Assembly (NCBI RefSeq): GCF_022819385.1
Contig: NZ_CP089290.1
Coordinates: 1 to 64,000, forward strand
DNA length: 64,000 bases
Source: Candidatus Nanosynbacter sp. HMT-352
Lineage (GTDB): Bacteria; Patescibacteriota; Saccharimonadia; Saccharimonadales; Saccharimonadaceae
Direction of reading: 5' to 3'
In this document: one piece after another, positions 1,155-63,867 of the stretch
Numbering within the stretch: position 1 is the stretch's first letter
Layout: each line of letters starts with the position of its first letter
The notes under the pieces: model-generated
What the model saw: only the letters and a program-made list of their open reading frames with translations
Databases searched by the model: none
What the model was told of the DNA's origin: nothing
Made by a program: the position numbers and the translations under genes

Positions 1155-1160
1155 ACACTA

Positions 1161-1166
1161 ATTATA
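1161..1166 (-). promoter_or_regulatory. Extended -10 box of ruvB, leaderless start
   Basis: TGA-TATAAT followed by six bases and the ruvB ATG. No convincing -35 is present; the TG dinucleotide gives an extended -10. Confidence 0.7.
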
Positions 1167-1176
1167 TCATTTGTAG

Positions 1177-1182
1177 TACAAT
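1177..1182 (+). promoter_or_regulatory. Putative -10 box for the structured RNA / DUF4352 unit
   Basis: TACAAT ends six bases before the first base of the long RNA stem at 1189. The -35 region is weak. It is back to back with the ruvB promoter. Confidence 0.5.
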
Positions 1183-1188
1183 AGGGGT

Positions 1189-1306
1189 GTCTACATCTAG
1201 AACCAGGCGTTTTGAGCGCATTGTTTACGTGCATAATGGGCAGCCGTTATCGAGCGTAAACTTGCGTTCTAGGTGTAGACAGCCAAATTTAACGGCTGTC
1301 CTTTTT
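1189..1306 (+). ncRNA. Candidate structured RNA or riboswitch-like leader with terminator
   Basis: A 15-bp closing stem (1189-1203 with 1266-1280, one G-U pair) encloses a second stem of 7 bp (1223-1229 with 1255-1261) and an apical 7-bp hairpin with a GCAG tetraloop (1233-1239 with 1244-1250). It runs straight into a terminator hairpin (1278-1284 with 1294-1300) plus a T tract. The first three bases of the terminator are the last three of the closing stem. I do not recognise a known RNA class; it is not 4.5S, tmRNA or RNase P. It could be an independent small RNA or an attenuating leader for the gene at 1337. Confidence 0.55.
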
Positions 1307-1336
1307 GTTGGGCGGCACATCTCATAGGAGGGGATG

Positions 1337-1885
1337 ATGAACACAAGCGAGAAAAAACCAATTTTTAAGAAGGTGTGGTTTTGGGTAATTATTGTTATTA
1401 TTGTGATTGGAGTATCCAGCGCATCGCAACAGAACAAAGCCACTGTCGTCAATACAAACAATAATAACGCTACTTCGGAAAATAAACCAACCGAAAAAAC
1501 TACTTTCAAAGTTGGTGAAACTATCGCTTTCGACGGCAAGGAGGTGACCGTTAAATCAATTGATCGCAATTGGGATTCTGGTAACCAGTTCATTAAAGCC
1601 AGTGACGGCAAAGAATATGTTAAAGCAAATGTTTCAATCGTCAACAAATCAGATAGCGAACTATCATTTAATACGTTCGACTGGAAAATAGAAGATGCGA
1701 ATGGCGCTATTGAAGGGCCAAGCGGCACAGCCTTCACCGCAAGCGACAACCTAGGGTCTGGCGACCTAGCAGTCAACGGCAAAAAAGAAGGTTCTGTTAT
1801 TTTTGAGGTTGCAAAAGATTCAAAAATTAAAATTCACTACCAGCCTTCATTTTGGTCAAATAAAAAAATTATTATTGAGCCGTAA
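1337..1885 (+). CDS. Membrane-anchored DUF4352-type extracellular protein
   Basis: The 182-aa product has a short charged N-terminus, one hydrophobic segment (about residues 12-30), an Asn/Thr-rich linker and then a beta-rich domain of about 120 residues. The domain contains the VGETIAFDGKEVTV and YVKANVSIVNKS patterns of DUF4352 (telokin-like) proteins. It is probably anchored by its N-terminus and exposed outside the cell; its function is unknown. AGGAGG at 1326-1331 favours the second ATG (1337) over the first (1334), which would be only two bases away. It follows a structured RNA with a terminator, so expression may be attenuated. A strong terminator follows the gene. Confidence 0.8.
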   Translation: MNTSEKKPIFKKVWFWVIIVIIVIGVSSASQQNKATVVNTNNNNATSENKPTEKTTFKVGETIAFDGKEVTVKSIDRNWDSGNQFIKASDGKEYVKANVSIVNKSDSELSFNTFDWKIEDANGAIEGPSGTAFTASDNLGSGDLAVNGKKEGSVIFEVAKDSKIKIHYQPSFWSNKKIIIEP

Positions 1886-1905
1886 GAAAACTAATTATCA
1901 TTACG

Positions 1906-1940
1906 AGGACGCTATTGCTTTTAGCGTCCTTTTTATTTCT
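1906..1940 (+). terminator. Rho-independent terminator after the DUF4352 gene
   Basis: A 9-bp perfect stem (1906-1914 with 1922-1930) is followed by a T-rich tail that overlaps the convergent ruvA stop codon at 1933-1935. Confidence 0.85.
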
Positions 1941-2508
1941 TCAGCGCCTCAGTTACTCGCTGAGATGTCGGCAAATTGACATCGACATTTTCAAGCGCCT
2001 TAGTGGCATCCGCTAATGTATAGCCCAAAGCCATCAATGCCTCCAAGGCCTCATCAGAAGTGTTTAATTCAGTCTGTAGCGGGGTTTCCGTTCGTCCGTA
2101 ATGAGTCGGTAAACCAACTTTATCGCTCAAATCGACCACCACTCGCTCGGCAGTTTTTTTGCCGACGCCAGTAGCCTTTTGTACAAAGCCGCTGTCAGCG
2201 TTAGCAATAGCGTTGCGCACTTGCTCGGCATCACCCAAGCTCAAAATAGACAGCGCAGCCTTCGGACCAACCCCCTGAACCGTGATTAGCATTTCAAATA
2301 ACTTTTTCGCCGCCAAACTCGAAAACCCAAACAATTCCTCAGACTGTTCGCGCACGTGATGATAAGTGTAAAATTTCACTTCTTGATCTAATATCACTGC
2401 GTCAAAATCATTAGTCGCCACGCTAACTTCATATCCAACACCATGAACATCAATGACTAACGAGCCGTTAAACTTCTCAGCAACTTTTCCAAAAACATGT
2501 GCAATCAT
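1933..2508 (-). CDS. ruvA: Holliday junction DNA helicase subunit RuvA
   Basis: RuvA binds four-way junctions and loads RuvB. The 191-aa product is close to the usual length. It opens with the OB-fold (MIAHVFGKV) and continues through two helix-hairpin-helix segments (VQGVGPKAALSIL and ATGVGKKTAERVVVDL) to a small RuvB-binding C-terminal domain (about 145-191). The gene lies directly after ruvC on the minus strand, but a TATAAT box whose TAA is the ruvC stop codon sits exactly six bases before the ATG. It may therefore be transcribed both from its own leaderless promoter and by read-through from ruvC. Confidence 0.97.
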   Translation of the reverse strand: MIAHVFGKVAEKFNGSLVIDVHGVGYEVSVATNDFDAVILDQEVKFYTYHHVREQSEELFGFSSLAAKKLFEMLITVQGVGPKAALSILSLGDAEQVRNAIANADSGFVQKATGVGKKTAERVVVDLSDKVGLPTHYGRTETPLQTELNTSDEALEALMALGYTLADATKALENVDVNLPTSQRVTEALKK

Positions 2509-2514
2509 ATTTCA

Positions 2515-2520
2515 ATTATA
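2515..2520 (-). promoter_or_regulatory. -10 box of ruvA overlapping the ruvC stop codon
   Basis: TATAAT, then six bases, then the ruvA ATG. The TAA inside the box is the ruvC stop (2516-2518). Confidence 0.65.
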
Positions 2521-2989
2521 CCCGATTCATCGCCGCGTGTGTAATTGCTGCAGCCAAAGCGTCCGCGCAGTCATCCGGCTTCGGAACATCTTTCAAACCC
2601 AAATTAAGACGCACCATTTCCTGGACCTGCTTTTTATCAGCCTTGCCATATCCGGTCAAAGTTTGTTTTATTTGCAGTGGCGTATATTCAGCAATCGGCA
2701 TTCCAGCTTTTCGCCCAGTCAACATCGCCACACCGCGCGCCTCCGCCACAGAAATCGCCGTCGTAACATTACGCGCAAAAAATAGCTTTTCAATCGACAT
2801 GACATCAGGATTTGTTTCGGCAATAATCTCTGTCAGGCTATCGAAAATATCTTCAAGCCTTTCATCAATTGGCGTATGTGCCGGCGTCGTCACAACTCCC
2901 GCCGTGACCATCTTGAACTTGCCACGAGAAAAATCAATCACACCAAACCCCAAAATCCCCGTTCCCGGGTCAATCCCGATAATTCTCAT
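2516..2989 (-). CDS. ruvC: Crossover junction endodeoxyribonuclease RuvC
   Basis: RuvC resolves Holliday junctions. The 157-aa product starts with MRIIGIDPGTG, which carries the first catalytic Asp (D7). The remaining RNase-H-like catalytic acidic residues are visible in SIEKLFF and in the C-terminal DDCADALAAA segment. The reading frame is open 33 codons further upstream, but that extension has no family similarity and overlaps the upstream gene. The ATG at 2989 sits six bases after TGC-TATAAT, as in the other leaderless genes here. ruvA follows within eight bases. Confidence 0.96.
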   Translation of the reverse strand: MRIIGIDPGTGILGFGVIDFSRGKFKMVTAGVVTTPAHTPIDERLEDIFDSLTEIIAETNPDVMSIEKLFFARNVTTAISVAEARGVAMLTGRKAGMPIAEYTPLQIKQTLTGYGKADKKQVQEMVRLNLGLKDVPKPDDCADALAAAITHAAMNRV

Positions 2990-2995
2990 ATCTTT

Positions 2996-3001
2996 ATTAT
3001 A
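2996..3001 (-). promoter_or_regulatory. Extended -10 box of ruvC, leaderless start
   Basis: TGC-TATAAT followed by six bases and the ATG at 2989. It lies in the 16-base gap after the upstream gene. Confidence 0.7.
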
Positions 3002-3005
3002 GCAA

Positions 3006-4805
3006 TTATTTGCCGTTAGCGGATTTAATGCTTTCGCGGATTTTTCGTACAAATTGCGAAATTTCCCATCGCCATTGCCATACGCCATAACCGACGACCA
3101 GTAAACTCACGCCACCAAACACCCACCAACCCCAAGTAGCGCCAGCGACCTGCTTAACTTCAGTAGCCGCCGAGCCAACAGTTGGCATATTTGCAGATTT
3201 TATCTTTCGACATCGCTTAGTTTGCGGATTACGCTCAAATCCTTCTGGACATTCTTTTGCTATATCGTCAGTGGAGGCAATTTTCTTACATCGACCCGTA
3301 GCCGAATTGCGGAATTGACCCTCCGGGCAAGGCTTCAAGGTTTTTGCCGCAACCGATGCGATAGATCGACATCTGCCAGTTTCTTCACTACGATAATAGC
3401 CATCTTTACAAGGCGTAATAGTTTTTGCCGCTTCAATTTTTCGACAACGGAGAGTTTCTGGATGACGATATTGACCAACAGGACAAGGGCTTTCAACGGG
3501 CGGGATGGCAATTTTCACACATCTGCCCAGCGCATTTCGCTCGTAACCATTCTGACAATCCAAATATTCCTTAAAGATATTCTCAGAATTTTCAGTTATC
3601 ATAAACGTTTGTATCCACTCATCATCAATCAAACTCCACGAGGCGCCTTTTGGTATATTGTTATATTCAGCGATGTCAATTTTCGAGCCAGCCTCGTCCA
3701 GTAAATAAATTTTTCCTTTTGTTTTTGGCAATTTCAGCTTCGTGTTTTTTATTTTGATCGTTAAAAATTCACCCGGATTTAATTCGATGTTACCAATATT
3801 TTCACGAACGCCAGAATCGCCAACCGTCAATTTACAGCCCGTCGTAATGACGGTTTTTTCGCCAGAATTAATAATTTCAATGAATTGCTCATCAATGTTC
3901 GATGCGATTTCACTTAGCTTCAGACCTTCACATTTATTCAACTCCTTTGGAGATTCAGATTTGGAATCTGGGGTTTTGCAATTTGGTCGTGAATACGGCA
4001 CAATTTCCTGATTATCAGAACCTTTACTCGATAAAAAATCAGTGGAATTATTTTTCGAATCAATAATATTTTCACCAATAAAACAGCGCCAAACAATTTT
4101 CACACCACCTTTAATTGGTGAGCCTGCAGACTTTGAATTATTTCCCCAGCCAACGGTATCTGCGACCGACCCGTCCGAACGCGACAACACGACCGATCCA
4201 TCATTTTGAGCCAAACCCAAATTATTATCAAACTTTATGGCGCCCGCCAACATCTTATCGTTCGACAAGACCAAAAATCCGTTCGCCAAGATTACTTCAT
4301 CCTTGAAAATCTTTCCAACGGTTTTAGTGCCAGATCCAGCGTAATACTCTATTTTCCAACCAGTCAAGTCAACATTCTGATTCGTCGGATTATATATCTC
4401 AATGTATTTTTTATCCTGACTAATCTTTGAAATTAATATCGTCGCATTTTCTTCTGTTCTTTCATCTGACTTATCTATTTTTGGTGGCTCAGATTCGGGA
4501 TTTGGCTCAGACTTTGAAGACTCATTGGCGGCAGGATTTTCGCTCGGACTATTTGTAGACGAATTCTCCGTTGGAGTCTCGGGATTTTCACTTGATTGAG
4601 AAGGTGAATTGCTATCGATCTGATCCTTGTCAACAACTGGATCTTTCGCTTCCTCAGCCGATTTAAGACTATTATCAACAGTCTGAACGTCATCAACTTT
4701 CGACTCTTGAGTAGCACTTGAAACACCTTCCGCCAAAACCAACGGCGACGGCATTATTAGCGCCGCGGCTAGTATCATAAGTAGTGTGTTGCGCAAATAC
4801 TTCAT
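3006..4805 (-). CDS. Secreted surface protein with two lamin-tail domains and Cys-rich repeats
   Basis: The 599-aa product has a signal peptide (MKYLRN then a hydrophobic core, probable cleavage near the VLA site) and a long Ser/Pro/Glu/Asn-rich linker (about 30-125). Two lamin-tail-like domains follow (about 125-270 and 290-410), then five repeats of about 25-30 residues with the pattern C-x2-G-[YF]-x-R-x5-[GR]-R-C-[RKV]-[KS]-I (about 415-545). It ends with a membrane segment (WGWWVFGGVSLLVVGYGVW) and a basic tail. It is probably displayed outside and anchored by the C-terminus. AAGGAG six bases upstream selects the ATG at 4805 over one nine codons upstream. A role in contact with the host bacterium is inference only. 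Confidence 0.85.
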   Translation of the reverse strand: MKYLRNTLLMILAAALIMPSPLVLAEGVSSATQESKVDDVQTVDNSLKSAEEAKDPVVDKDQIDSNSPSQSSENPETPTENSSTNSPSENPAANESSKSEPNPESEPPKIDKSDERTEENATILISKISQDKKYIEIYNPTNQNVDLTGWKIEYYAGSGTKTVGKIFKDEVILANGFLVLSNDKMLAGAIKFDNNLGLAQNDGSVVLSRSDGSVADTVGWGNNSKSAGSPIKGGVKIVWRCFIGENIIDSKNNSTDFLSSKGSDNQEIVPYSRPNCKTPDSKSESPKELNKCEGLKLSEIASNIDEQFIEIINSGEKTVITTGCKLTVGDSGVRENIGNIELNPGEFLTIKIKNTKLKLPKTKGKIYLLDEAGSKIDIAEYNNIPKGASWSLIDDEWIQTFMITENSENIFKEYLDCQNGYERNALGRCVKIAIPPVESPCPVGQYRHPETLRCRKIEAAKTITPCKDGYYRSEETGRCRSIASVAAKTLKPCPEGQFRNSATGRCKKIASTDDIAKECPEGFERNPQTKRCRKIKSANMPTVGSAATEVKQVAGATWGWWVFGGVSLLVVGYGVWQWRWEISQFVRKIRESIKSANGK

Positions 4806-4859
4806 GCTCGCTCCTTGCTTATGGTTAATCATCTTTAGTTTATCGTACTTTTTGTCAAA

Positions 4860-4888
4860 TTAAAAATCGCCCCAAAAAAGGAGCGATT
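4860..4888 (-). terminator. Terminator after yebC
   Basis: A 9-bp stem (4865-4873 with 4880-4888, one G-U pair) around a T6 loop, followed on the minus strand by a T-rich tract. It is 17 bases after the yebC stop. Confidence 0.7.
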
Positions 4889-4904
4889 CCTTAAAGCGAT
4901 GATT

Positions 4905-5621
4905 TTATTCCGCCGTGATATCCGCATTTGTATGAACATTCACAACGTCATCCAAATCGTCCAACGCATCAATCATTTTCATCAATTTCTGTGCAGTTTC
5001 CATGTCGGCAATTTCTATCGGCGTGTTAGCAATATATCGCAACTCCGCATCTTTAACCTTCAAGCCTTGTTCAACCAATTTATTCCGCACGCTCGCCAAA
5101 TCTTTCAACTCTGTATACACGATAATCTCGCCATCTTCCTCGACAGCATCTTCGGCGCCAGCGTCCAAAACCGCCAGCAACAAATCTTCCCCGCTGCCTT
5201 TGATAGTGATGACGCCTTTGCGTGTAAATTGGAACATCACACTACCAGCATCAGCAATTCGCCCGCCATTTTTAACCAACGCAGTTTTTACCTCTGGCAA
5301 TGTTCGATTACGATTATCTGTCGCCGTTTCAATAATAACGCCCACGCCGCCAGGACCATAACCTTCGTAAGCAATTTCTTCCAAAGCCGCCGCACTTTTA
5401 TCTGCCACTCGATCAATTGCTCGCTGAATGTTTGCACTAGGCATATTTGCGGCCTTAGCTTTTTCAATTGCCATCGCCAAACTTGAGTTCAGCGCTGGGT
5501 CTGTGCCGCCACGTGCTGCAATAGCAATTTGATTACCCAATTTCGTAAAAATCGCGCCGCGCTTAGCGTCAACAATCGCTTTTTGTCGGTGAGTTGTAGC
5601 CCATTTACTGTGTCCTGACAT
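4905..5621 (-). CDS. yebC: YebC/PmpR family DNA-binding regulatory protein
   Basis: The 238-aa product begins with the family signature MSGHSKWATTHRQKAIVDAKRG and has the usual three-domain length. It also shows the NMPSANIQRAIDR and YEGYGPGGVGVIIE motifs. Family members act as transcriptional regulators, and some have been linked to relief of ribosome stalling; I cannot tell which applies here. AGGAG lies five bases before the ATG, so this gene has a normal led mRNA. It is a single gene with its own terminator downstream. Confidence 0.95.
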   Translation of the reverse strand: MSGHSKWATTHRQKAIVDAKRGAIFTKLGNQIAIAARGGTDPALNSSLAMAIEKAKAANMPSANIQRAIDRVADKSAAALEEIAYEGYGPGGVGVIIETATDNRNRTLPEVKTALVKNGGRIADAGSVMFQFTRKGVITIKGSGEDLLLAVLDAGAEDAVEEDGEIIVYTELKDLASVRNKLVEQGLKVKDAELRYIANTPIEIADMETAQKLMKMIDALDDLDDVVNVHTNADITAE

Positions 5622-5668
5622 ATTTTCTCCTAAAGTTATTTGCTATTTCAATCTGTTACTATTATACA

Positions 5669-7120: not shown

Positions 7121-7126
7121 ACTTAA

Positions 7127-7132
7127 AGTATA
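7127..7132 (-). promoter_or_regulatory. -10 box of comEC, leaderless start
   Basis: TATACT, six bases, ATG. A T6 stretch 17 bases upstream could serve as a poor -35. Confidence 0.6.
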
Positions 7133-7148
7133 TCTGGATCCGAAGCCA

Positions 7149-7173: not shown

Positions 7174-7184
7174 GATTTCAAATT

Positions 7185-8282: not shown

Positions 8283-8288
8283 ATTATA
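8283..8288 (-). promoter_or_regulatory. Extended -10 box of the DUF192 gene, leaderless start
   Basis: TGT-TATAAT, six bases, then the ATG at 8276. Confidence 0.7.
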
Positions 8289-9724: not shown

Positions 9725-9747
9725 ACGTCAATATTATGGCACAAAAT

Positions 9748-14061: not shown

Positions 14062-14090
14062 ATTATACGCGTTTAGCACTCTCAGTGCAA
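14062..14090 (-). promoter_or_regulatory. SigA-type promoter of dnaJ embedded in CIRCE
   Basis: On the minus strand TTGCAC (14085-14090) and TATAAT (14062-14067) are 17 bases apart. The -35 lies in the CIRCE spacer, so HrcA binding should occlude RNA polymerase. Confidence 0.8.
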
Positions 14091-14099
14091 GAGTGCTAA
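14073..14099. promoter_or_regulatory. CIRCE operator (HrcA site) of dnaJ
   Basis: The canonical inverted repeat TTAGCACTC-N9-GAGTGCTAA, with both arms perfect. Confidence 0.95.
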
Positions 14100-14957: not shown

Positions 14958-15015
14958 TGCAGTTTATATAATATCATATTTTGTAAAAATAGTCAATAAG
15001 TTTATCCTCATTAAA

Positions 15016-15090: not shown

Positions 15091-16983
15091 CTATTTCTCG
15101 TCGACAATTTCGCCTTCGACCGGCTCGTCCTTGTCAGACTTTTTGTCATCCTTAGACTCATCAGCCTTTTTGTCCTCAGCGGCTTGCTGGTACATCTTAG
15201 CCCCGATTGGCATAATCGCGTCGTTCAAGGCTTTAATTGCAGCATCCAATTCGTCCTTATCTTCAGAATCTTTGTGCTTTTCAGCCTCTTCGACCGCCTT
15301 TTCAATCGCTTGCTTATCATCGTCAGAAATCTTATCCTTGAATTCGTCCGGCATTTTCTTTGCCTGATAAATAGCGTTTTCAAGCTGATTCTTCGTATCG
15401 ACAGTTTCGCGCTTTTTCTTGTCTTCGTCCGCGTGAAGTTCGGCTTCTTTTTGTGCCTTCTCAATATCTTCCTTACTCATATTGCCAGAGTTTTGGATAG
15501 TGATTGATTGCTCCTTGCCAGTTCCCTTGTCTTTAGCCGTAACGTTAAGAATACCGTTGGCGTCAATATTAAAGGTCACTTCAATTTGAGGTACACCGCG
15601 TGGTGCTGGCGCAATACCATCAAGCACAAAACGACCCAAACTCTTATTATCATTAGCAAACTCGCGCTCACCCTGAAGAACGTGAATTTCCACCTGAGGC
15701 TGGTTATCAGCAGCTGTCGAGAAAACTTCGCTCTTACTTGTTGGAATCGTCGTATTTCGATCAATCAACTTCGTCGACACACCGCCCATCGTCTCAATTC
15801 CAAGAGAAAGCGGAGTCACGTCCAGAAGCAACACATCCTTAACATCACCAGCTAAGACGCCACCTTGAATTGCAGCACCAACAGCCACAACCTCATCTGG
15901 GTTCACACCTTGCATTGGATCTTTTCCAAAGAAATTCTTTACACGCTCGACCACAGCTGGCATACGAGTCATTCCACCAACCATAACTACATTGTTAATG
16001 TCGGATTTAGAAAGTTTGGCGTCCTTCAAAGCCTTTTCTACTGGACCGTCCAAGCGATCCAATAGGTCCTTAACCAAATCTTCCAACTTAGCGCGACTCA
16101 AGCTCATCTCAAAGTGCTTTGGACCATCAGCATCAGCAGTGATAAATGGAATGTTGACTTCATATTCAGTAACCGTCGACAATTCTTTCTTCGCTTTTTC
16201 GGCCTCATCCTTCAAGCGCTGCATCGCTGCATTATCTTTACGAAGATCAATTCCCTCCTTTGATTTGAAGTCGTCCAAGAAGTAGTTAACAATAGCGTTG
16301 TCGAAATCCTCACCACCAAGGTGTGTATCACCATTAGTTGCCTTAACTTCAAATACGCCGTCACCCAGTTCCAGCACCGACACGTCAAACGTACCGCCAC
16401 CAAGGTCAAACACCACAATAGTTTCGTCGTTTTTGCCTTTCTCCAGACCGTACGCCAAAGCCGCAGCTGTTGGTTCGTTAATAATACGCTTAACTTCCAA
16501 TCCAGCAATTTTACCAGCGTCCTTAGTCGCTTGGCGCTGTGAATCGTCAAAGTAAGCCGGCACCGTAATCACTGCTTCCGTCACTTTTTCACCCAAGAAA
16601 GCTTCGGCGTCAGCCTTGATTTTACTAAGAATCATTGCTGAAACTTCTTCTGGCGTATATTCCTTATCACCCATCTCGACCGCCACGCCAGTACCTTTTT
16701 TAACAATCTTGTACGGCATGATATCCAAGTCTTTTTGTACTTCCTTGTCGTCAAACTTACGACCAATCAAACGCTTAACGCCGTAAATCGTGTTTTTTGG
16801 ATTTGTTACACGCTGACGCTGAGCAACTTGACCGACAAGTCGTTCGCCCTTTTTATTAACCGCAACTACAGATGGTGTAGTGCGATTACCTTCGGCATTA
16901 GAAATAACCTCTGGTTTTCCAGCTAACATATACGCAAACGCACTGTTAGTTGTACCAAGGTCTATACCAATAATTTTACCCAT
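15091..16983 (-). CDS. dnaK: Chaperone protein DnaK (Hsp70)
   Basis: The 630-aa product has full Hsp70 length. The ATPase domain includes [44 protein letters not shown] and [10 protein letters not shown]. The substrate-binding domain starts after [10 protein letters not shown] and the helical lid ends in a highly acidic/Lys-rich tail with EGEIVDEK. A good Shine-Dalgarno (AAAGGGG) precedes the ATG. A dedicated promoter flanked by two CIRCE sites lies between grpE and dnaK, so dnaK can be induced separately from hrcA-grpE. A copy of its last 16 codons, stop included, is found downstream at 14155. Confidence 0.98.
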
Positions 16984-17068: not shown

Positions 17069-17097
17069 AGTATAAATAATTAGCACTCTCATGTCAA
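17069..17097 (-). promoter_or_regulatory. SigA-type promoter of dnaK
   Basis: On the minus strand TTGACA (17092-17097) and TATACT (17069-17074) are 17 bases apart. The -35 lies inside CIRCE 2 and the start point inside CIRCE 1, giving a doubly guarded promoter. Confidence 0.85.
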
Positions 17098-17106
17098 GAG
17101 TGCTAA
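17080..17106. promoter_or_regulatory. CIRCE operator 2 of dnaK
   Basis: Perfect TTAGCACTC-N9-GAGTGCTAA, 22 bases downstream of the grpE stop. Confidence 0.95.
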
Positions 17107-18455: not shown

Positions 18456-18461
18456 ATTATA
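18456..18461 (-). promoter_or_regulatory. -10 box of hrcA, leaderless start
   Basis: TATAAT, six bases, then the ATG at 18449. TTGTAT 17 bases upstream, inside CIRCE, is the likely -35. Confidence 0.75.
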
Positions 18462-19867: not shown

Positions 19868-20574
19868 AGATTAATTATATCATTGAGGAGATTTCGAGCT
19901 ACCAAACGCGCCTCGTCATCTTGACGCTTAAACACGTCGCCGCGCAAAATAATTTCCTCGGTCACTCGAATTGCTCGCTCCAAATCGTCATTGATAATAA
20001 CATGATAATACGGAACTTCAAGCGCGTAAGCCAACTCTTTTACCGCCGAGGCGTGACGCTTTGGCCACTCCGCTTGAAAATCTTCTTCGGTTGCGTAACG
20101 CTTTTTCAATCGCTCAATCCAAGTTTGGCTATTTGGCGGCACAATGAAAATCGCAATGCTATCTGGCGCCAGTCGCTCATATTCCTCCACGCCCTGAACG
20201 TCAATGTCAGTAATTGCCACGCGGTTCTGGTCATGCGCTAATTTCAGCTCAGCCACTGACGTTCCATAAACTGTACTGTGAACAAATTTTGCCTCAATAA
20301 ATTCATTATTTTGTAGCATATTTTCGGCAGTTTGCGAATCAATAAAGTGATAATCAATTCCATCTTGCTCGGCACATCCATTATTTGTGCGTGGCGCGCG
20401 CGTAGTGTGAGAAACAATATCGCGAAACTCCGGAGACTTCAGTAATTGTTTTTTTATCGTGTCTTTGCCCGCACCAGAAATTCCCGCAAGCAGCGCAATT
20501 TTCGTACTTTTAACCAACTCAATTGTCGATTCAGTTGGCTGATAATTTGTAATAAGATCTTCAATACTTGGCAT
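19864..20574 (-). CDS. gmk: Guanylate kinase
   Basis: Gmk phosphorylates GMP to GDP. The 236-aa product has a P-loop GISGAGKDT near residue 33, the GMP-binding region (SHTTRAPR, then DYHFID) and the RLKKRYATEEDF lid. About 25 extra residues precede the usual N-terminus and the C-terminus is also extended, so it is longer than the typical 205 residues. The stop TGA overlaps the start of the LssY_C gene. Confidence 0.93.
   Translation of the reverse strand: MPSIEDLITNYQPTESTIELVKSTKIALLAGISGAGKDTIKKQLLKSPEFRDIVSHTTRAPRTNNGCAEQDGIDYHFIDSQTAENMLQNNEFIEAKFVHSTVYGTSVAELKLAHDQNRVAITDIDVQGVEEYERLAPDSIAIFIVPPNSQTWIERLKKRYATEEDFQAEWPKRHASAVKELAYALEVPYYHVIINDDLERAIRVTEEIILRGDVFKRQDDEARLVARNLLNDIINL
19874..19879 (-). 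promoter_or_regulatory. Extended -10 box of the LssY_C gene inside gmk
   Basis: TGA-TATAAT, six bases, ATG at 19867. The box is within codons for the gmk C-terminus. Confidence 0.6.
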
Positions 20575-22018: not shown

Positions 22019-22024
22019 ATTATA
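22019..22024 (-). promoter_or_regulatory. Putative -10 box for the lepA C-terminal half
   Basis: TGA-TATAAT, 11 bases before the ATG at 22007; lies in the insertion. Confidence 0.45.
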
Positions 22025-22413: not shown

Positions 22414-22443
22414 ATTATATTATAAAGGAAAAGATGCTGTCAA
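22414..22443 (-). promoter_or_regulatory. Hybrid promoter of SemiSWEET: -35 in the IS end, -10 outside
   Basis: TTGACA at 22438-22443 lies within the IS terminal sequence, and TATAAT at 22414-22419 follows at 18 bases. An outward-facing -35 in an IS end is a known way for IS elements to activate a neighbour. Confidence 0.6.
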
Positions 22444-27937: not shown

Positions 27938-27943
27938 ATTATC
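27938..27943 (-). promoter_or_regulatory. -10 box of tilS, leaderless GTG start
   Basis: GATAAT, six bases, GTG at 27931. Confidence 0.55.
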
Positions 27944-31606: not shown

Positions 31607-31933
31607 TTAGTATCTGCTATCATCGTTGGCGTAACGCTTACCCCTACTACCAATTTTCACATGCGGACACTTCTCTCCAGGATTGATATTCCTACAACAG
31701 TCACCGCAGAAGAAACCTTTTACAGCCTTCTCGCCAATCCCTCTAGTAGATCTCAGATTCTTCATAAGTTGCTTTATAATACGCGGATCTTCAACTGGTA
31801 GCCCCATCGATCTTCTAGCGTCATCGTAAGAACATCCTGTAGTATCAACAATATGATCGAGCTCAGCTTCCTGTTCAGGAGTTAGTTCAGAATTTATATT
31901 AGCCTCAACCGATGATCCTTCTTTTTGTGTCAT
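31607..31933 (-). CDS. Small zinc-ribbon-like protein
   Basis: The 108-aa product is acidic in its first half (NSELTPEQEAELDHIVDTTGCSYDDARRSMG) and ends with a Cys cluster, FFCGDCCRNINPGEKCPHVKIG, that could bind zinc. I recognise no family. The frame is open nine codons further upstream, but the ATG at 31933 is exactly six bases after TGG-TATAAA, so this is the likely leaderless start. Confidence 0.65.
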   Translation of the reverse strand: MTQKEGSSVEANINSELTPEQEAELDHIVDTTGCSYDDARRSMGLPVEDPRIIKQLMKNLRSTRGIGEKAVKGFFCGDCCRNINPGEKCPHVKIGSRGKRYANDDSRY

Positions 31934-31939: not shown

Positions 31940-31945
31940 TTTATA
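31940..31945 (-). promoter_or_regulatory. Extended -10 box of the zinc-ribbon gene
   Basis: TGG-TATAAA, six bases, ATG at 31933. Confidence 0.6.
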
Positions 31946-33078: not shown

Positions 33079-33084
33079 TATAAT
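33079..33084 (+). promoter_or_regulatory. Extended -10 box of murC, leaderless start
   Basis: TGG-TATAAT, six bases, ATG at 33091. Confidence 0.7.
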
Positions 33085-34702: not shown

Positions 34703-35344
34703 TTAGCGCGTAACTCTTACGAAATTAATAGTTTTTCCTTCGCCAATCCACCTTTGTTCATAAGTCGTCATTATTTTATATTCGTCACTTAGCGCGGATT
34801 CGTGGAGGTCAAAACTCAGCTCCTTAATTTGCCATTTTTCTGACACTAATTGCTCCAAGCTCCAGCAGAAAAAATTGTGGTCGTCGTGTTTAATCAACAA
34901 AGATCCGTCCGGTGCCAACAATGAAGAATACTTCTTCAAAAAATTAGGATGAGTCAAGCGGCGCCCAGCGCTATGCTTCCTTGGGAACGGATCAGGAAAT
35001 GTTACCCAAATTTGCTCCAAAGAACTCTGCTTCACTAATTGGTCTATTTGATCAGCCCGCGCTCGAACAAAAAACACATTCTCCAGCCCTTTTTCTTCAG
35101 CAATTTTCGCGCCCTTTTGTAATCGATCACCTTTCACGTCAATTGCTAAAAACGTCTTTTCAGGATGACGCAGTGCAAGCTCCACGCTGAATAGTCCAGT
35201 TCCAGCACCGATTTCCAAACAATCAACTTTCCGCTCTATCCACTCGTCAAATTCAAAGCATAGAGGCGAATTATGGAATAAAGCGAATTTATACTTCTTA
35301 CGTTTTCTAGTGATAATAAATTGATTCGGATCGACAAAACTCAT
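34703..35344 (-). CDS. trmB: tRNA (guanine-N7-)-methyltransferase TrmB
   Basis: TrmB methylates G46 of tRNA with SAM. The 213-aa product has the SAM-binding motif LEIGAGTGLFSVELALRHPEK, the D-x-K region (AIDVKGDRL), the signature FPDPFPRKHSAGRRL and a C-terminal YEQRWIGEGKTI. TATAAT lies seven bases before the ATG. Its promoter overlaps head to head with that of mscS. Confidence 0.94.
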   Translation of the reverse strand: MSFVDPNQFIITRKRKKYKFALFHNSPLCFEFDEWIERKVDCLEIGAGTGLFSVELALRHPEKTFLAIDVKGDRLQKGAKIAEEKGLENVFFVRARADQIDQLVKQSSLEQIWVTFPDPFPRKHSAGRRLTHPNFLKKYSSLLAPDGSLLIKHDDHNFFCWSLEQLVSEKWQIKELSFDLHESALSDEYKIMTTYEQRWIGEGKTINFVRVTR

Positions 35345-35351
35345 ATTTTCT

Positions 35352-35359
35352 ATTATACT
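35352..35359. promoter_or_regulatory. Overlapping divergent -10 boxes of trmB and mscS
   Basis: ATTATACT contains TATAAT on the minus strand (35352-35357, 7 bases before the trmB ATG) and TATACT on the plus strand (35354-35359, 9 bases before the mscS ATG). The two promoters cannot be bound at the same time. Confidence 0.6.
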
Positions 35360-35368
35360 AAATCAATA

Positions 35369-36271
35369 ATGGATAAGCTTATAAAACAGTTTTTGGATTC
35401 TTCTACGTTAGGTCAATGGCTGCATGGCAACAACCTTGGCTGGCTAATTAGTGAACGCATTATCGACACAGTCAGCATTATTATTGGCTCTGTTTTTGTT
35501 TATTTTCTGGGGAAATATTTATTATCTTGGACTATACATTATTCTATACGCTCCACCGCCAAACATCGTTCCTGGCACCGTAAAGACATAGAAAAGCGCG
35601 AAAAAACTCTCATCCAATTAACTCGCAGTTTCTGGCAAATTATTATAATTTTCTATGTCGCCGCAATTGTCGCCAATAAACTATTCCTATTTGATTTATC
35701 GCCGCTATTCGCTAGTGCTGGTATAATCGGTGTGGCGTTAGGATTTGGCGCTCAATCGCTCGTTAAGGACTTCTTGTCTGGTATTTTCATCATCGCCGAA
35801 AATCAATATCGTGTTGGCGATGTCGTTGACGTAATGGGAGCTGCTGGAACCGTCGAAAGAGTTGGTACTCGCACTACTGTTATACGAGATTCCGAGGGTA
35901 ATGTTCATTATGTTCCAAATGGTACGATCCAGCACGTTATCAATAAAACTATGGGCTATAGCATGTCGCGATTCAGCATTTATATCGACCCAAGTTCTGA
36001 CATTTCTGCAGTTACAGACATCATTAACGCCACTGGTCAAGAATTGGCTAAAGAAAAGGCTTGGCAAAAGAAAATTATCGATCCGCCTAAATTCGTTTCC
36101 GTTGGTGATATTACTGGACGAGGAACAGAATTGATCATTGCCGGAAAAACTCAGCCATCCGATCAGTGGTCTGTTACCTCTGAAATGCGACATCGATTAC
36201 TACAAAACTTTGATCGCGAAGGAGTTCTTTTGGCGACTCTGCCGACCCCAACCTCAATGACCAGAAGATAA
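35369..36271 (+). CDS. Small-conductance mechanosensitive channel MscS family
   Basis: The 300-aa product has membrane helices at about 25-50, 80-105 and 115-135. The third is the pore helix with GIIGVALGFGAQSLVKDFLSGIFI, followed by the beta domain (YRVGDVVDVMGAAGTVERVGTRTT, VPNGTIQHV) and a cytoplasmic alpha-beta domain. These channels release solutes on hypo-osmotic shock. The frame is open 16 codons upstream into trmB, but the ATG at 35369 follows the -10 closely and matches the family N-terminus. Confidence 0.92.
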   Translation: MDKLIKQFLDSSTLGQWLHGNNLGWLISERIIDTVSIIIGSVFVYFLGKYLLSWTIHYSIRSTAKHRSWHRKDIEKREKTLIQLTRSFWQIIIIFYVAAIVANKLFLFDLSPLFASAGIIGVALGFGAQSLVKDFLSGIFIIAENQYRVGDVVDVMGAAGTVERVGTRTTVIRDSEGNVHYVPNGTIQHVINKTMGYSMSRFSIYIDPSSDISAVTDIINATGQELAKEKAWQKKIIDPPKFVSVGDITGRGTELIIAGKTQPSDQWSVTSEMRHRLLQNFDREGVLLATLPTPTSMTRR

Positions 36272-37154: not shown

Positions 37155-37194
37155 CACTTACATTATCTCACGTCTTCTTGAATAGAGTCAAATA

Positions 37195-37705: not shown

Positions 37706-37861
37706 GCTTTACCTTTCTGCAAAAGTTTATATTTGTTATGTTTATTTTAGCATGCTTGTTAAATTGTTTGTATTAGATAATCTAACTATTTCACTATAGC
37801 ATAAGCTTATTAAATTGTCAATAGAGATGTCCGCTAATCGTTAATAATATGATAAACTGGT

Positions 37862-40934: not shown

Positions 40935-40940
40935 ATTATA
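40935..40940 (-). promoter_or_regulatory. Extended -10 box of aspS
   Basis: TGC-TATAAT, seven bases, ATG at 40927. Confidence 0.6.
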
Positions 40941-41994: not shown

Positions 41995-42000
41995 ATTGTA
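41995..42000 (-). promoter_or_regulatory. -10 box of the CBS-pair gene, leaderless start
   Basis: TACAAT, six bases, ATG at 41988. It is close to the divergent DsbA-like promoter. Confidence 0.55.
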
Positions 42001-44026: not shown

Positions 44027-44032
44027 ATTATA
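44027..44032 (-). promoter_or_regulatory. -10 box of corA copy 1, leaderless start
   Basis: TATAAT, six bases, ATG at 44020. Confidence 0.65.
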
Positions 44033-45000: not shown

Positions 45001-45006
45001 ATTATA
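45001..45006 (-). promoter_or_regulatory. -10 box of corA copy 2
   Basis: TATAAT, eight bases, ATG at 44992. Confidence 0.5.
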
Positions 45007-50520: not shown

Positions 50521-50526
50521 ATTATA
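50521..50526 (-). promoter_or_regulatory. -10 box of the TylF-like gene, leaderless start
   Basis: TATAAT, six bases, ATG at 50514. Confidence 0.65.
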
Positions 50527-58059: not shown

Positions 58060-58065
58060 ACTTTT

Positions 58066-58071
58066 ATTATA
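58066..58071 (-). promoter_or_regulatory. -10 box of the amino-acid importer operon, leaderless start
   Basis: TATAAT, six bases, ATG at 58059. Confidence 0.7.
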
Positions 58072-58099
58072 CCCCTTCATCCGCAAAAAACGTAAGTGA

Positions 58100-58105
58100 T
58101 ATAAT
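58100..58105 (+). promoter_or_regulatory. Extended -10 box of the sulfatase gene
   Basis: TGA-TATAAT, six bases, GTG at 58112 (ATG at 58109 is three bases away). It is divergent from the importer promoter. Confidence 0.65.
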
Positions 58106-58111
58106 AGAATG

Positions 58112-59677: not shown

Positions 59678-60687
59678 CCATTGTAGCCGTTTGGATTATT
59701 ACTTTGCCAATTCCAAGCGTCGCGGCAAGCATCTTCAATTGTCAATTCTGCTCGCCAGCCTAATTCTTTTTCTGCCAATCCTGGGTCTGCATAACACGCT
59801 GCAATGTCACCTGCTCGACGTGGCGTAACTTGATATGGGACATCGCGACCAGACGCCTTCTCAAACGCCTTCACTAATTCCAAAACCGAAGTACCACGAC
59901 CAGTACCGATATTATAGACTTTATATTCGTTCGGTCGACCCAAATTCTCCAGAGCCGCCACATGAGCCTTCGCTAAATCAACTACGTGGATGTAATCACG
60001 TACGCCAGTTCCATCTGGAGTATCATAATCGTCACCAAAAACGCTCAAATACTCTCGCTTACCAACAGCAACTTGCGACACAAACGGCAGAAGATTATTT
60101 GGAATTCCCGAAGGATCTTCCCCGATGCGACCGCTCGGATGCGCGCCAACTGGATTAAAATAGCGGAGAGATGTAAATTGCCAATTTTGATTTGTCGCAG
60201 AAATATCGCGAAGCATTTGCTCAATCATCAGCTTCGTCTGACCGTATGGATTCGTGGCGGACAACGGCATATCTTCGGTAATTGGTAATCGAGCTGGGTC
60301 GCCGTAAACTGTTGCCGAACTAGAAAACACCAATTTCTTCACGTCAAATTCTTGCATCACATCAAGCAAAACCAACGTGCTTTCAAGGTTATTTTTATAG
60401 TAAAGAAGCGCCTTTTCAACCGATTCGCCAACCGCCTTCAACCCAGCAAAGTGAATCACAGCATCAATTTTTTCAGTCTTAAATAATTCTGATAGTCGCT
60501 GATGATCACATAAATCGAATTCATAAAACGGTATTGATTGGCCAGTGATTTCTTCAACTCGCCTCAGACTCTCGGCGGATGAATTTGATAAATTATCGAC
60601 CACCACTACGTTATGATTTGATGATAATAGTTCGATGATAGTGTGACTGCCGATATATCCAGCGCCACCAGTGACAAGAATATTCAT
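59674..60687 (-). CDS. galE: UDP-glucose 4-epimerase
   Basis: GalE interconverts UDP-glucose and UDP-galactose (or the N-acetyl forms). The 337-aa product has the NAD motif GGAGYIGSH at 7-15, FSSSATVYG, the catalytic YGQTK and the RYFNPVGAHPSGRIGEDP substrate loop. The ATG lies six bases after TATGTT. It is convergent with the sulfatase gene; both may serve envelope sugar polymers. Confidence 0.96.
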   Translation of the reverse strand: MNILVTGGAGYIGSHTIIELLSSNHNVVVVDNLSNSSAESLRRVEEITGQSIPFYEFDLCDHQRLSELFKTEKIDAVIHFAGLKAVGESVEKALLYYKNNLESTLVLLDVMQEFDVKKLVFSSSATVYGDPARLPITEDMPLSATNPYGQTKLMIEQMLRDISATNQNWQFTSLRYFNPVGAHPSGRIGEDPSGIPNNLLPFVSQVAVGKREYLSVFGDDYDTPDGTGVRDYIHVVDLAKAHVAALENLGRPNEYKVYNIGTGRGTSVLELVKAFEKASGRDVPYQVTPRRAGDIAACYADPGLAEKELGWRAELTIEDACRDAWNWQSNNPNGYNG

Positions 60688-60693
60688 ACATTT

Positions 60694-60699
60694 AACATA
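60694..60699 (-). promoter_or_regulatory. -10 box of galE, leaderless start
   Basis: TATGTT, six bases, ATG at 60687. Confidence 0.5.
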
Positions 60700-60722
60700 T
60701 CACAAAATGACTATTTATTTTA

Positions 60723-60749
60723 TTAGCACTCTTGCACTGAGAGTGCTAA
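60723..60749. promoter_or_regulatory. CIRCE operator of clpB
   Basis: Perfect TTAGCACTC-N9-GAGTGCTAA. It places clpB in the HrcA regulon, far from the hrcA-dnaJ locus. Confidence 0.95.
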
Positions 60750-60760
60750 TTTGTTATGAT
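60732..60760 (+). promoter_or_regulatory. SigA-type promoter of clpB embedded in CIRCE
   Basis: TTGCAC (60732-60737), 17 bases, TATGAT (60755-60760). The -35 is in the CIRCE spacer exactly as at dnaJ. A leader of about 70 bases follows. Confidence 0.8.
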
Positions 60761-60836
60761 AACTATATCAAATTTCACCATTCTGTCTTTTACTGGGGCG
60801 CAACAAATTAGGACTAAAAATCAAAAGGAGGATTTT

Positions 60837-62984
60837 ATGCCACCAAATATGAATCAAGAAGAAACAACTAAACCACTCGAAAAATTTGGTACAGATATAA
60901 CGGCATTGGCGCGAGAAGGCAAACTCGATCCAGTGATCGGTCGAGATGAAGAAATTCGACGCACTATGCAGATTTTAAGTCGCCGCACTAAAAACAATCC
61001 CGTCCTCATCGGTGAGCCAGGAGTTGGTAAAACCGCGATTGTTGAGGCGTTGGCGCAGCGAATTGTCAAAGGCAACGTTCCCGCTTCACTGAAGGATAAG
61101 CGACTAATTTCCCTAGAAATTTCCAGTCTTCTGGCGGGCGCTAGTTTCCGCGGACAATTTGAGGATCGATTGAAAGCCGTTTTAAAAGAAGTAGAAGACG
61201 CAGCCGGCGAGATTATTCTTTTTGTCGATGAAATTCACACCATGGTTGGCGCTGGGAAAAGCGAAGGCAGTATGGACGCGGGTAATATGTTAAAGCCAGC
61301 GCTGGCTCGTGGAAAATTGCACATGATTGGCGCGACAACGCTCGCTGAATATCGTCAATACGTCGAAAAAGATGCCGCCTTAGAGCGAAGATTCCAGCCA
61401 GTTTACGTTGGCGAACCAAGTTTTGACGACACTGTCGCCATCTTGCGCGGATTGAAGGAAAAATACGAAATTCATCACGGAGTAAAAATCGCTGACGACG
61501 CAATCGTGGCAGCCGCCAGATTGTCCACCAGATATTTGCCTGACCGATTCTTGCCAGACAAAGCAGTCGACTTGCTTGACGAAGCGACCAGCTCACTCAA
61601 AATGCAATTAGAAAGTGTGCCAATTGCGCTGGATCGATTGAACAATAGACGCTTGCAATTGGAAATCGAGGAAGCGGCGTTGAAAAAGGACAAATCCGAC
61701 CACGCCAATATTCGCAAAGATGAAATCAAAGAGCAAATTGCCGAGATTCGCGCAAAAGCCGAAGTGATTGATAAGAAATGGCAACACGAAAAAGACATTT
61801 TGCAAACCGTCAACACGACTACCGAAAAAATGGACAATCTGCGCTCACAATTAGAAATTGCTGAACGCGACGCAGACCTAGCCACCGCCAGCCGCATTAA
61901 GTATGGCGATTTGCCGGAGCTGGAGAAAAAATTAGCAAGCGCCCGCGAAGAACTAGCGGCAATTCCAACTCACGACCGATTGCTCCGCGAAGAAGTTACG
62001 CCTGACGATATTGCTGGCGTGGTAGCGCGCTGGACCGGAATTCCAGTGGAACGATTGATGGAAAGTGAATCCAGCAAATTGACCAAATTGGAAGAATCAA
62101 TTAGCCGCCAAGTCATCGGGCAAGATCGCGCTGTAGCAGCTGTAGCAAGCGCCATTCGTAGGTCGCGCGCTGGACTCGGCGACGTTAATCGACCGATTGG
62201 CTCATTCCTATTCCTCGGACCTACTGGCGTGGGAAAAACAGAAGTCGCGCGCAGTTTATGCCGTGAATTATTCGACGACGAGCATGCCATGATTCGAATT
62301 GACATGAGTGAATATATGGAACGCCACGCCGTAGCCAGATTGATCGGTTCGCCTCCAGGATATGTCGGCTACGATCAGGGCGGTCAATTGACGGAAGCCG
62401 TTAGGCGACGCCCTTATAGCGTGGTTTTGTTTGACGAAATCGAAAAAGCACACCCCGACGTATTTAACGTACTATTGCAAGTTTTGGACGACGGTCGATT
62501 GACGGACGGACAAGGACGAACGATTGACTTTAGCAACACCATTATCATCATGACCAGCAACGTCGGATCGCAAATGATTATGGACTACACGGGCGACGAC
62601 ATTAGCTCTCTCGACAATCAAATTTTAGAGACACTTCGTGGTCATTTCCGTCCAGAATTCTTAAACCGAATTGACGACATCGTGATTTTTGATCGCATTC
62701 ACCCTGAATCGATGCGTGCGATTGTTGACGTGCAATTAGAAAAAGTTGTTCGCCAAGTTAAGGATAGTCGCGACATAACGCTGGATTTTGACAATAGCGT
62801 TTGCGATATGTTGGCGCGAGACGGCTACGACCCGAGTTTCGGCGCTCGACCACTTAAGCGTTTGATTCAAAAACGCGTGCTTGATCCTTTGGCACTCGAA
62901 CTGATCGACGGGCGAATTCATGACGGAGATACGGTAAAAGTTGCTGCAGTGGATGATCGAATTGCCTTTACGAATATCGTATAA
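60837..62984 (+). CDS. clpB: ClpB-type disaggregase lacking the N-terminal domain
   Basis: ClpB rescues aggregated proteins with DnaK. The 715-aa product begins almost directly at the first AAA+ module ([13 protein letters not shown], Walker A GEPGVGKT). It keeps a full-length coiled-coil M domain (about 320-440) and has the second AAA+ module ([39 protein letters not shown]). The substrate-binding N-domain of about 145 residues is absent. AGGAGG selects the ATG at 60837; an upstream ATG overlaps the -10. It is controlled by CIRCE. The TAA stop is part of the next gene's -10 box. Confidence 0.95.
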
Positions 62985-62985
62985 T
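62980..62985 (+). promoter_or_regulatory. -10 box of the methyltransferase gene overlapping the clpB stop
   Basis: TATAAT contains the clpB TAA (62982-62984); six bases later is the ATG at 62992. Confidence 0.65.
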
Positions 62986-62991
62986 AGATAC

Positions 62992-63867
62992 ATGAGCCAA
63001 ATTCGCAGCGAGCACTTGGAAAATCATACCAACAAAACCTATCAAGAGCGGATGAACCAAACAGCGTCATCCAAATTCGGAGCCATCGAAAAACACCTTG
63101 GTAAGAACATTAAATTGCTTGATTTTGGTTCTGGTTTCTCGCCAGAATTCATCAAACAAGTGACGCAAACAGGAACTCACTACGTAGCCTATGATGTTTC
63201 ACAAATTGTTCAATCTCAACTTCAAGAAAATAACATTGATTTCATCACTAAAGAACAACTTGAAAACATCGAAGATGAATTCGACATCATCTACATGTCT
63301 AGTGTATTTCACGAATTGATGAGCTATCTATCTCGACCTGAGCGCACTAAAACATTCGCAATGCTAGATAGAGCACTCAAGCCCGACGGCGTCATTATCA
63401 TCCGCGATTGGGGTCCCGGCGATACGCCAAACCTAGTCACGTCTATCGAAGTAGCATCTGAGGATGTTAACGATGAAGTTTATACATGGATCAAAGCGCT
63501 TGTTAAAAATTCAGTGATTAGCATGCCTACTATCGTTTGCGACGACAATGATAATCCTATCGCTCCGTACATTTACAAGGCAAATAGCCAAACTATTTAT
63601 GAAATCATGTTTCACGCGGTTTGGGGGCTGGATTCACTTGAACGCGAATCAAAAGAATCGTACGTTATCGTGGATCACCTTATTCACAAATGGATTTGCG
63701 CGCCACATGGCTACAAAATAACACAGTCGCAGAATGAATTCGATGAAACCTATTTGCCACATTTACAAAAATACTTCAAAATCGATAATATTCCATGGCC
63801 AACAAAGGTTATTTACGAACTAAAAAAGGACATCGTAAATAACACACCAGCAAACTTTATAGCATAA
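62992..63867 (+). CDS. Class I SAM-dependent methyltransferase
   Basis: The 291-aa product has KLLDFGSGFSPEFIKQV near residue 40, AYDVSQIV, EDEFDIIYMSSVFHELMSYL and DGVIIIRDWGPGD, a typical class I methyltransferase order. The substrate is unknown; the motif FHELMSYL and the long C-terminal part are not ones I can tie to a named family. The frame is open 17 codons upstream inside clpB, but the ATG at 62992 is six bases after TATAAT. Confidence 0.82.
   Translation: MSQIRSEHLENHTNKTYQERMNQTASSKFGAIEKHLGKNIKLLDFGSGFSPEFIKQVTQTGTHYVAYDVSQIVQSQLQENNIDFITKEQLENIEDEFDIIYMSSVFHELMSYLSRPERTKTFAMLDRALKPDGVIIIRDWGPGDTPNLVTSIEVASEDVNDEVYTWIKALVKNSVISMPTIVCDDNDNPIAPYIYKANSQTIYEIMFHAVWGLDSLERESKESYVIVDHLIHKWICAPHGYKITQSQNEFDETYLPHLQKYFKIDNIPWPTKVIYELKKDIVNNTPANFIA

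Follow-up and report, generated by a model that had tools for sequence, protein, structure and literature searches.

Boxes resembling −10 elements, set six bases before start codons, point to leaderless genes beside Shine-Dalgarno starts in a Saccharibacteria genome

The first 64,000 nucleotides of contig NZ_CP089290.1 from Candidatus Nanosynbacter sp. HMT-352 (assembly GCF_022819385.1), the whole of which is referred to here as the window, hold ruvC, ruvA and ruvB, genes of the dnaJ and hrcA type, murC, aspS, two corA copies, and a number of genes known from their protein domains. A hexamer resembling the −10 box TATAAT ends exactly six bases before the start codon in many of these. A preliminary description of the window had read this arrangement (box, six bases, ATG or GTG) as a window-wide grammar of leaderless promoters, in which the mRNA would begin at the start codon, and had proposed a dominant role for it in this lineage. 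As judged from sequence, the arrangement is common and coexists with Shine-Dalgarno (SD) starts, but is not dominant here.

All 17 genes to which a spacing of six had been attributed were found to have a −10-like box at exactly that distance from the named start (Table 1). Twelve of these boxes are exact TATAAT, four have one mismatch (comEC, tilS, the gene at 31933 and the CBS-domain gene) and that of galE has two; a TGn motif precedes nine of the 17. The six genes assigned spacings of 7–9 (aspS, trmB, corA copy 2, dnaJ, mscS and VIT) were likewise recovered, the weakest box being that of VIT, which has two possible starts. Pfam bore out the gene names used, other than that of the supposed zinc-ribbon gene (31933), which matched no Pfam family, and relatives served to identify ruvB. 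Position 1 of the Pfam RuvC profile aligns at residue 3 counted from the ruvC start at 2989. TATAAT-N6-RTG (where R is A or G) occurs 12 times in the window, compared with 1.62 expected from dinucleotide shuffles, none of which reached 12 in 100 attempts (maximum 5), and all 12 sites are starts of genes already named. At 11 of the 12, a pyrimidine precedes the start codon.

Two larger samples served to examine this spacing. The nearest genome, G001 (701,908 bp), has in common 30% of the window's sampled 31-letter words. In addition, a scan with the window's ruvB, of which the best 80 of 567 matches were kept, yielded OX335598.1 ('Candidatus Saccharibacteria bacterium', 98% protein identity to the window's ruvB) and 79 related loci. 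Of the latter, 59 bear titles naming Saccharibacteria, Saccharimonadia or TM7, in agreement with the Candidate Phyla Radiation (CPR) lineage proposed earlier, and 20 bear others, mostly just 'bacterium'. When TATAAT was counted at each distance d before any ATG in G001, independently of gene calls, distances of 6, 7, 8, 9 and 10 gave 62, 41, 18, 21 and 18 sites, the average over d = 12–40 being 12.8. For ATGs opening at least 150 codons, the counts were 42, 24, 11, 13 and 7 at d = 6–10 and 1, 1, 1, 4, 0 and 1 at d = 0–5. Such a sharp lower edge at six is as expected if at least six bases must separate the box from the first base that the polymerase transcribes. As a negative control, 200 kb of E. 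coli run through the same pipeline gave no signal, and none at d = 6.

The base preceding the ATG was equally distinctive. At d = 6 in G001 it was T in 38 cases, C in 22, A in 2 and G in none (pyrimidine in 60/62), compared with T 125, A 104, G 92 and C 34 at d = 12–39 (pyrimidine in 159/355); C itself was enriched (22/62 vs 34/355). In the 79 loci a pyrimidine was present at 123/130 sites with d = 6, 114 of which open a reading frame of at least 80 codons. A pyrimidine-purine step at the RNA start is a general initiator preference, and at spacing six it would therefore place +1 on the A of the ATG. The d = 6 class of G001 comprised 71 ATG, 4 GTG and no TTG starts. TATAAT-N6-GTG was raised in G001 (15 vs 7 background) but not in the 79 loci (9 vs 14); TATAAT-N6-TTG was low in G001 (4 vs 17), the figures for the loci being 19 vs 25. 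A separate peak of TATAAT-N5-CAT (37 sites) was considered as a sign of bidirectional promoters and rejected, since none of the 37 was a called opposite start and several were simply a C before ATG.

To estimate how common such starts are, a mixture model, in which the leaderless and SD classes are mutually exclusive by construction, was trained on 771 gene models of G001 (85% coverage) made with our own caller; these superseded the output of an earlier caller (551 genes, 71% coverage). The other samples were 373 kb of G253, 191 kb of G110 and 1,470 gene models in the 79 loci; 61 gene models in the window, ruvC lying outside the set, were scored with the model trained on G001. The first motif recovered was TGnTATAAT (T79 G78 n T92 A97 T77 A92 A78 T97, in percent), 47% of it at spacing six, and the second AGGAGG, mostly at 3–10. 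The leaderless and SD shares were 22% vs 39% in G001, 31% vs 45% in the G253 part, 26% vs 57% in the G110 part and 32% vs 42% in the 79 loci, all of them rough values because shuffled and displaced upstream regions also fill the leaderless component. SD starts outnumbered leaderless starts in each of these four samples, none of which is mainly leaderless in that sense, and the dominant role proposed for the lineage fell accordingly. The grammar is also not window-wide if every gene is meant: at the start with the best coding score, 19 of the 61 window models were leaderless, 27 SD and 15 neither, six of the 15 becoming leaderless when given an in-frame alternative start (a partly circular gain). 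Fractions were left uninterpreted where a component lacked its motif, as did the SD component in G168 and G072 (no SD motif) and the leaderless component in G072 (no box at spacing six) and in E. coli and D. radiodurans (no −10 motif).

A fixed count of boxes with at most one mismatch gave 149 at d = 6–9 vs 44 at d = 16–19 among the 565 G001 genes not tightly preceded by another, and 9 vs 11 among the 206 tight genes. The corresponding figures in the 79 loci were 335 vs 95 (n = 1,007) and 65 vs 21 (n = 462), so that tight genes there are not free of boxes. The 3′ end of 16S rRNA keeps the anti-SD sequence ACCTCCTTT in G001, G253, G050, G168, G072, G157 and G142; this search covered eight further genomes, with G115 left out of the reading and G110 giving no 16S match.

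The boxes have further properties of promoters. TGn precedes 105 of the 143 confident leaderless boxes in G001, and a TTGACA-like hexamer (at most two mismatches) was present at exactly 17 bp from 36 of the 143, compared with 3–13 at 25 other spacings. The earlier remark that many boxes have an extended TGn and lack a −35 is hence right about TGn and about most boxes, but a minority do have a −35 element. An extended −10 or a −35 at 17 bp is shared with sigma-70/sigma-A promoters, as is the presence, in relatives, of a housekeeping sigma factor with regions 2 and 4. G001 gave one Sigma70 region-2 match, and G253, of the same genus, encodes an uninterrupted RpoD of 319 aa, residues 14–318 of which match SigA structures; this span covers sigma regions 2 and 4, and region 4 was also detected by Pfam. 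The rpoD copy of G001 (L118) continues in another reading frame at its C-terminus, and no rpoD was identified within the window. The G001 assembly (L118 and 537115–538122) shows broken reading frames towards the end of rpoD and in both ruvA and ruvC, although a relative or the window has each of them open; together with a completeness of 83%, this suggests assembly indels.

These properties bear on the idea that the TA-rich element acts in translation, as an unstructured or S1-binding leader, and is not a promoter. An S1 protein is present in G001 (a single frame of 393 aa with four matches to the S1 domain, 87070–88056), which means that S1 loss is no explanation for leaderless genes and at the same time leaves a possible reader for such a leader; moreover, the distant genome G072 has a TA motif at spacing 14–15 even in tight operons. 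However, TGn, the −35 at 17 bp and the initiator step are features of transcription, and boxes are rare at coupled genes, which makes a role in translation very improbable. A separate prediction, that the 5′ ends of leaderless genes are less structured than those of SD genes, was not borne out (first 40 nt, mean −3.19 kcal/mol for 139 leaderless vs −3.50 kcal/mol for 200 SD genes; P = 0.54).

Gene context had a strong influence. The leaderless posterior in G001 was 0.35 for divergent genes, 0.20 for far ones, 0.43 for genes 16–40 bp from the preceding gene and 0.06 for tight genes, in which the SD posterior was 0.59. The same dependence was seen within a single gene when the ruvB upstream regions of the 79 loci (L038–L116; L086, lacking a start, was dropped) were compared, taking as a box any match with at most one mismatch at d = 6–11, and as coupled any ruvB with the preceding gene within 15 bases. 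Where ruvB stands apart, 41/46 copies have a box and 6/46 an SD-like word; where it is coupled, the values are 5/32 and 22/32 (box vs coupling, Fisher P = 7 × 10^−11, shared descent ignored). Homology between the window and G001 ends where ruvB begins: TATAAT-N6-ATG is present in the window, and G001 has AGGAG with a GTG start, in different DNA with an overlapping same-strand reading frame. The ruvA-ruvB intergene of the window (1155–1932) differs from that of G001, the alignment blocks stopping at 1153 and restarting at 1934, and is a variable insertion spot between two core genes.

It might be argued that the boxes are secondary, internal promoters, and that protein comes mainly from longer transcripts with leaders or from read-through: ruvC, ruvA and ruvB each have a box inside one cluster, and tight genes retain SD sequences. 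This is nevertheless improbable, since boxes and SD words at ruvB are mostly mutually exclusive, and since leaderless scores are highest for divergent genes and those 16–40 bp from a neighbour.

Conservation was examined in 222 reciprocal best hits between G001 and G253 (median protein identity 71%), of which 121 with inconsistent starts were dropped. Of the 101 kept, 25 were leaderless in both genomes, 51 were SD in both, four swapped from one class to the other and 21 had at least one member in neither class; the SD copy is tightly coupled in three of the four swapped pairs. In the eight pairs with d = 6 in both genomes, the box and TG positions were 88–100% identical, with the exception of the third base of TATAAT (62%), vs 12–62% at the other upstream positions, a comparison that is partly circular as the pairs were picked by their box.

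Several observations weigh against leaderless transcription from these boxes. Refitting the mixture model to shuffled upstream regions still placed 30–48% of genes in the leaderless component, albeit with a log-likelihood of 70–89 vs 824–859 for the real ones, and refitting to real sequence 60 bp further upstream placed 37–40% there (log-likelihood 234–244). D. radiodurans plasmid MP1 (150 kb, same pipeline) gave no usable motif and could not serve as a positive control. Gene calls and starts are imperfect (own caller, no curated annotation, frame breaks in G001), given that 38% of G001 models, and 24–27% in G253 and the 79 loci, fell in neither class. Further, the base before the GTG of the sulfatase gene is a G and not a pyrimidine, and TANNNT-N6-RTG, the pattern that had been proposed for counting, was not enriched over the whole window (54 vs 67.5 expected). 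The last result would fit boxes that occur by chance in AT-rich upstream DNA and were selected by eye; but shuffles, spacing controls and E. coli all speak against chance, which is refuted for TATAAT at spacing six and can otherwise be given next to no credence. The absence of enrichment indicates instead that the signal sits in TATAAT and at gene starts; the loose pattern cannot separate it from background unless restricted to gene starts.

The remaining objections concern exactness. The pyrimidine signature is weak at d = 7, 8, 9 and 10, both in G001 (26/41, 10/18, 14/21 and 13/18) and in the 79 loci (38/72, 27/46, 20/33 and 15/31), which points to a start position less sharply defined in such genes than at spacing six, and the spacing is equal in just 11 of the 25 pairs that are leaderless in both G001 and G253. 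The boxes could then be promoters whose RNA start often falls a few bases off, leaving a leader of 1–5 bases or losing the start codon, with strictly leaderless transcripts in the minority. The raised counts at spacings 7–10, the weak preference already at d = 7 and the unequal spacing of 14 of the 25 pairs are in its favour; nevertheless, the commonest spacing has the pyrimidine-purine step exactly at the start codon and d = 0–5 is almost empty for long reading frames, so that we regard it as rather unlikely.

Some start codons had been revised on the basis of the boxes, and relatives bear out three of these revisions. For hrcA, a stop codon rules out an upstream start in G253 and in L082, where the box lies six bases before the ATG, and in L081 the start is shifted by two codons and the box along with it. 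The CBS-domain protein shows the same pattern in G253. For the binding protein in G253, the 22 codons upstream contain no start codon; a box at six again precedes the first ATG, which comes three codons further on. The mscS start was settled neither way because, in L041, homology extends upstream of the proposed start through a stretch that overlaps the trmB start on the other strand. In the window, trmB and mscS diverge (35344–35369) with overlapping −10 boxes and 24 bases between their start codons. Seven divergent leaderless pairs within 120 bp were seen in G001, where the gap is 60 bp or less in 26 of 96 divergent gene pairs, four of these being overlapping calls.

Table 1. Boxes resembling −10 elements before gene starts in the window
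Position	Strand	Box	Spacing	Gene (start)	Remarks
1161..1166	-	TATAAT, TGn	6	ruvB (1154)	
2515..2520	-	TATAAT	6	ruvA (2508)	Pfam
2996..3001	-	TATAAT	6	ruvC (2989)	
7127..7132	-	TATACT	6	comEC-like (7120)	Pfam
8283..8288	-	TATAAT	6	DUF192 gene (8276)	Pfam
9733..9738	-	CATAAT	8	Zn_protease-family gene (9724)	newly listed
14062..14067	-	TATAAT	9	dnaJ (14052)	leaderless score 0.48 only
14968..14973	-	TATTAT (weak, −10-like)	10	no Pfam match (14957)	score 0.88; newly listed
18456..18461	-	TATAAT	6	hrcA (18449)	Pfam; relatives back start
19874..19879	-	TATAAT	6	LssY_C gene (19867)	Pfam
22019..22024	-	TATAAT, TGn (weak)	11	gene with LepA C-terminal domains (22007)	score 0.56; newly listed
22414..22419	-	TATAAT	8	MtN3_slv-family gene (22405)	newly listed
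27938..27943	-	GATAAT	6	tilS-like, PP-loop (GTG, 27931)	Pfam
31940..31945	-	TATAAA	6	small gene (31933)	no Pfam match
33079..33084	+	TATAAT	6	murC-like (33091)	Pfam
35352..35357	-	TATAAT	7	trmB-like (35344)	overlaps opposite-strand mscS box
35354..35359	+	TATACT	9	mscS-like (candidate start 35369)	Pfam
37162..37167	-	GATAAT, TGn	7	no Pfam match (37154)	newly listed
37848..37853	+	TATGAT (weak, −10-like)	8	VIT-family gene (37862 or 37868)	
40935..40940	-	TATAAT	7	aspS (40927)	Pfam
41995..42000	-	TACAAT	6	CBS-domain gene (41988)	Pfam
44027..44032	-	TATAAT	6	corA copy 1 (44020)	Pfam
45001..45006	-	TATAAT	8	corA copy 2 (44992)	Pfam
50521..50526	-	TATAAT	6	TylF-like gene (50514)	Pfam
58066..58071	-	TATAAT	6	SBP_bac_3 binding protein (58059)	Pfam
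58100..58105	+	TATAAT	6	sulfatase (GTG, 58112; ATG 3 bases earlier)	Pfam
60694..60699	-	TATGTT, TGn (−10-like)	6	galE-like (60687)	leaderless score 0.45
62980..62985	+	TATAAT	6	methyltransferase (62992)	Pfam

Three perfect inverted repeats of the CIRCE type, TTAGCACTC-N9-GAGTGCTAA, are present at 14073–14099 before dnaJ, at 17080–17106 and at 60723–60749 in the galE-clpB interval. That at 17080–17106 precedes a gene starting at 16983 which, judged from its first residues, is DnaK-like. Degenerate copies were noted around 17038 and, ahead of hrcA, around 18473. At dnaJ, five bases separate the operator from the −10 box downstream of it, as required if there is no leader.

With the spacing peak, the pyrimidine at −1, TGn, the minority of −35 elements, the rarity of boxes inside operons and their conservation on its side, the leaderless-promoter reading is retained in all but its dominance. 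These are very probably sigma-A extended −10 promoters that give leaderless mRNA at the first genes of transcription units, beside SD starts. The housekeeping sigma factor would recognise TGnTATAAT, assisted at some promoters by a −35 at 17 bp; transcription would begin at the seventh base after the box, which is the first base (A or G) of the start codon, and this codon would double as the initiator. The mRNA would be leaderless, or have 1–4 leader bases at spacings 7–10, and would presumably be read by ribosomes that accept a 5′-terminal AUG. First genes of transcription units would have either a box or an SD leader, and genes in tight operons mostly SD sequences.

Leaderless genes are known in other bacteria (according to PMC9031893, more than 20% and up to 60% of mRNAs may be leaderless in bacteria of which M. 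tuberculosis and D. deserti are examples), and the idea itself is not new; what this work seems to add, from sequence, is a further case with unusually clean evidence at one-base resolution. A survey of TA-led (leaderless) genes in 953 bacterial genomes (PMC3160421, 2011) describes TANNNT/TATAAT some 12 bp upstream of the start codon in excess of shuffled controls. Such genes are rarer where operon-distal genes are commoner, and in some low-GC genomes a TG precedes the box. The genes described here share with TA-led genes a box about 10–12 bp upstream beyond dinucleotide shuffles (for TATAAT), SD as the alternative, enrichment at first genes and an RTG start with TTG avoided; they differ in the one-base resolution of the spacing and in the initiator base, and 'TM7' did not occur in the survey text. 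In Deinococcus-Thermus, a −10 motif adjoining open reading frames was tested by reporters and RNA-seq (PMC12340547, Zhong et al. 2025). That paper places it typically about 6–7 bp upstream of the reading frame, as a −10 region with RpoD, and reports enhancement by a −35 at 17 bp, re-assigned start codons and a share of about 30% of reading frames. The motif there is TANNNT, and here it is TATAAT with TGn, known from sequence alone. Symbiotic and unclear species were left out of the domain-wide scan in the same text, which therefore probably did not extend to this phylum. In mycobacteria (PMC4633059, 2015), RTG lies at +1 and C is preferred at −1 of M. tuberculosis start sites, as here; in contrast, the evidence there came from RNA-seq and ribosome profiling, and ATG and GTG are both used, compared with the 71:4 ratio at d = 6 in G001. 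The literature searched, outside which most subscription papers and preprints fell, gave no report of leaderless genes in CPR bacteria or Saccharibacteria and, in the portions accessible, no transcription start map for the phylum. Among the papers examined that name the phylum together with 'leaderless', the word was confined to a sentence on YchF or to the references.

When 379 Patescibacteria genomes, sampled from a larger group, were compared for TATAAT-N6-ATG and TATAAT-N16-ATG, the former prevailed in 310 and the latter in 58, with 11 ties (10,086 vs 5,439 sites in all); 128 genomes passed a one-sided P < 0.01 (uncorrected), and the excess was seen in 119 of 152 families. It was present in 24 of 24 genomes of the window's own family, f1 (1,200 vs 330). 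The record of TM7i, a cultured Saccharibacterium, contains 19 TATAAT-N6-ATG sites, compared with 1 when the pattern is reversed. Contrary to a simple story, eight genomes from other families of the same order gave merely 142 vs 120, and f9, f44 and f65, each with at least four genomes, ran in the opposite direction. In G168 (family f90; L153–L172, 400 kb), TANNNT at spacing six is found in tight genes too (21/180), SD words are barely above the control (20% vs 8–10% in tight genes) and the anti-SD is intact; this is possibly a mainly leaderless genome. In G072 (family f18; L173–L192, 400 kb), there is little or no SD signal, the anti-SD is likewise intact, and a TAAnTT-like motif lies 13–15 bases before starts in every context, tight operons included; it is perhaps a translation signal other than SD. 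That a leaderless mode with the start codon as initiator is general, perhaps ancestral, in Patescibacteria (CPR), and the main mode in some lineages (perhaps that of G168), can be put forward only tentatively. If true, many or most promoters of these very small genomes would have lost their 5′ leaders, and with them any regulation that depends on a leader.

Few members of this phylum have been cultured (strain BB001, for one, is grown on Actinomyces; PMC7441243), and the arrangement may provide a one-base rule for locating their promoters, transcription starts and true start codons. It also provides a natural experiment, in which one gene alternates between a box with ATG and an SD sequence as its neighbourhood changes. 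The prediction is that many Saccharibacteria genes have no leader; at these genes, regulators would have to act at or upstream of the −10 box, where the CIRCE operator of dnaJ indeed lies, and riboswitches located in leaders would be impossible.

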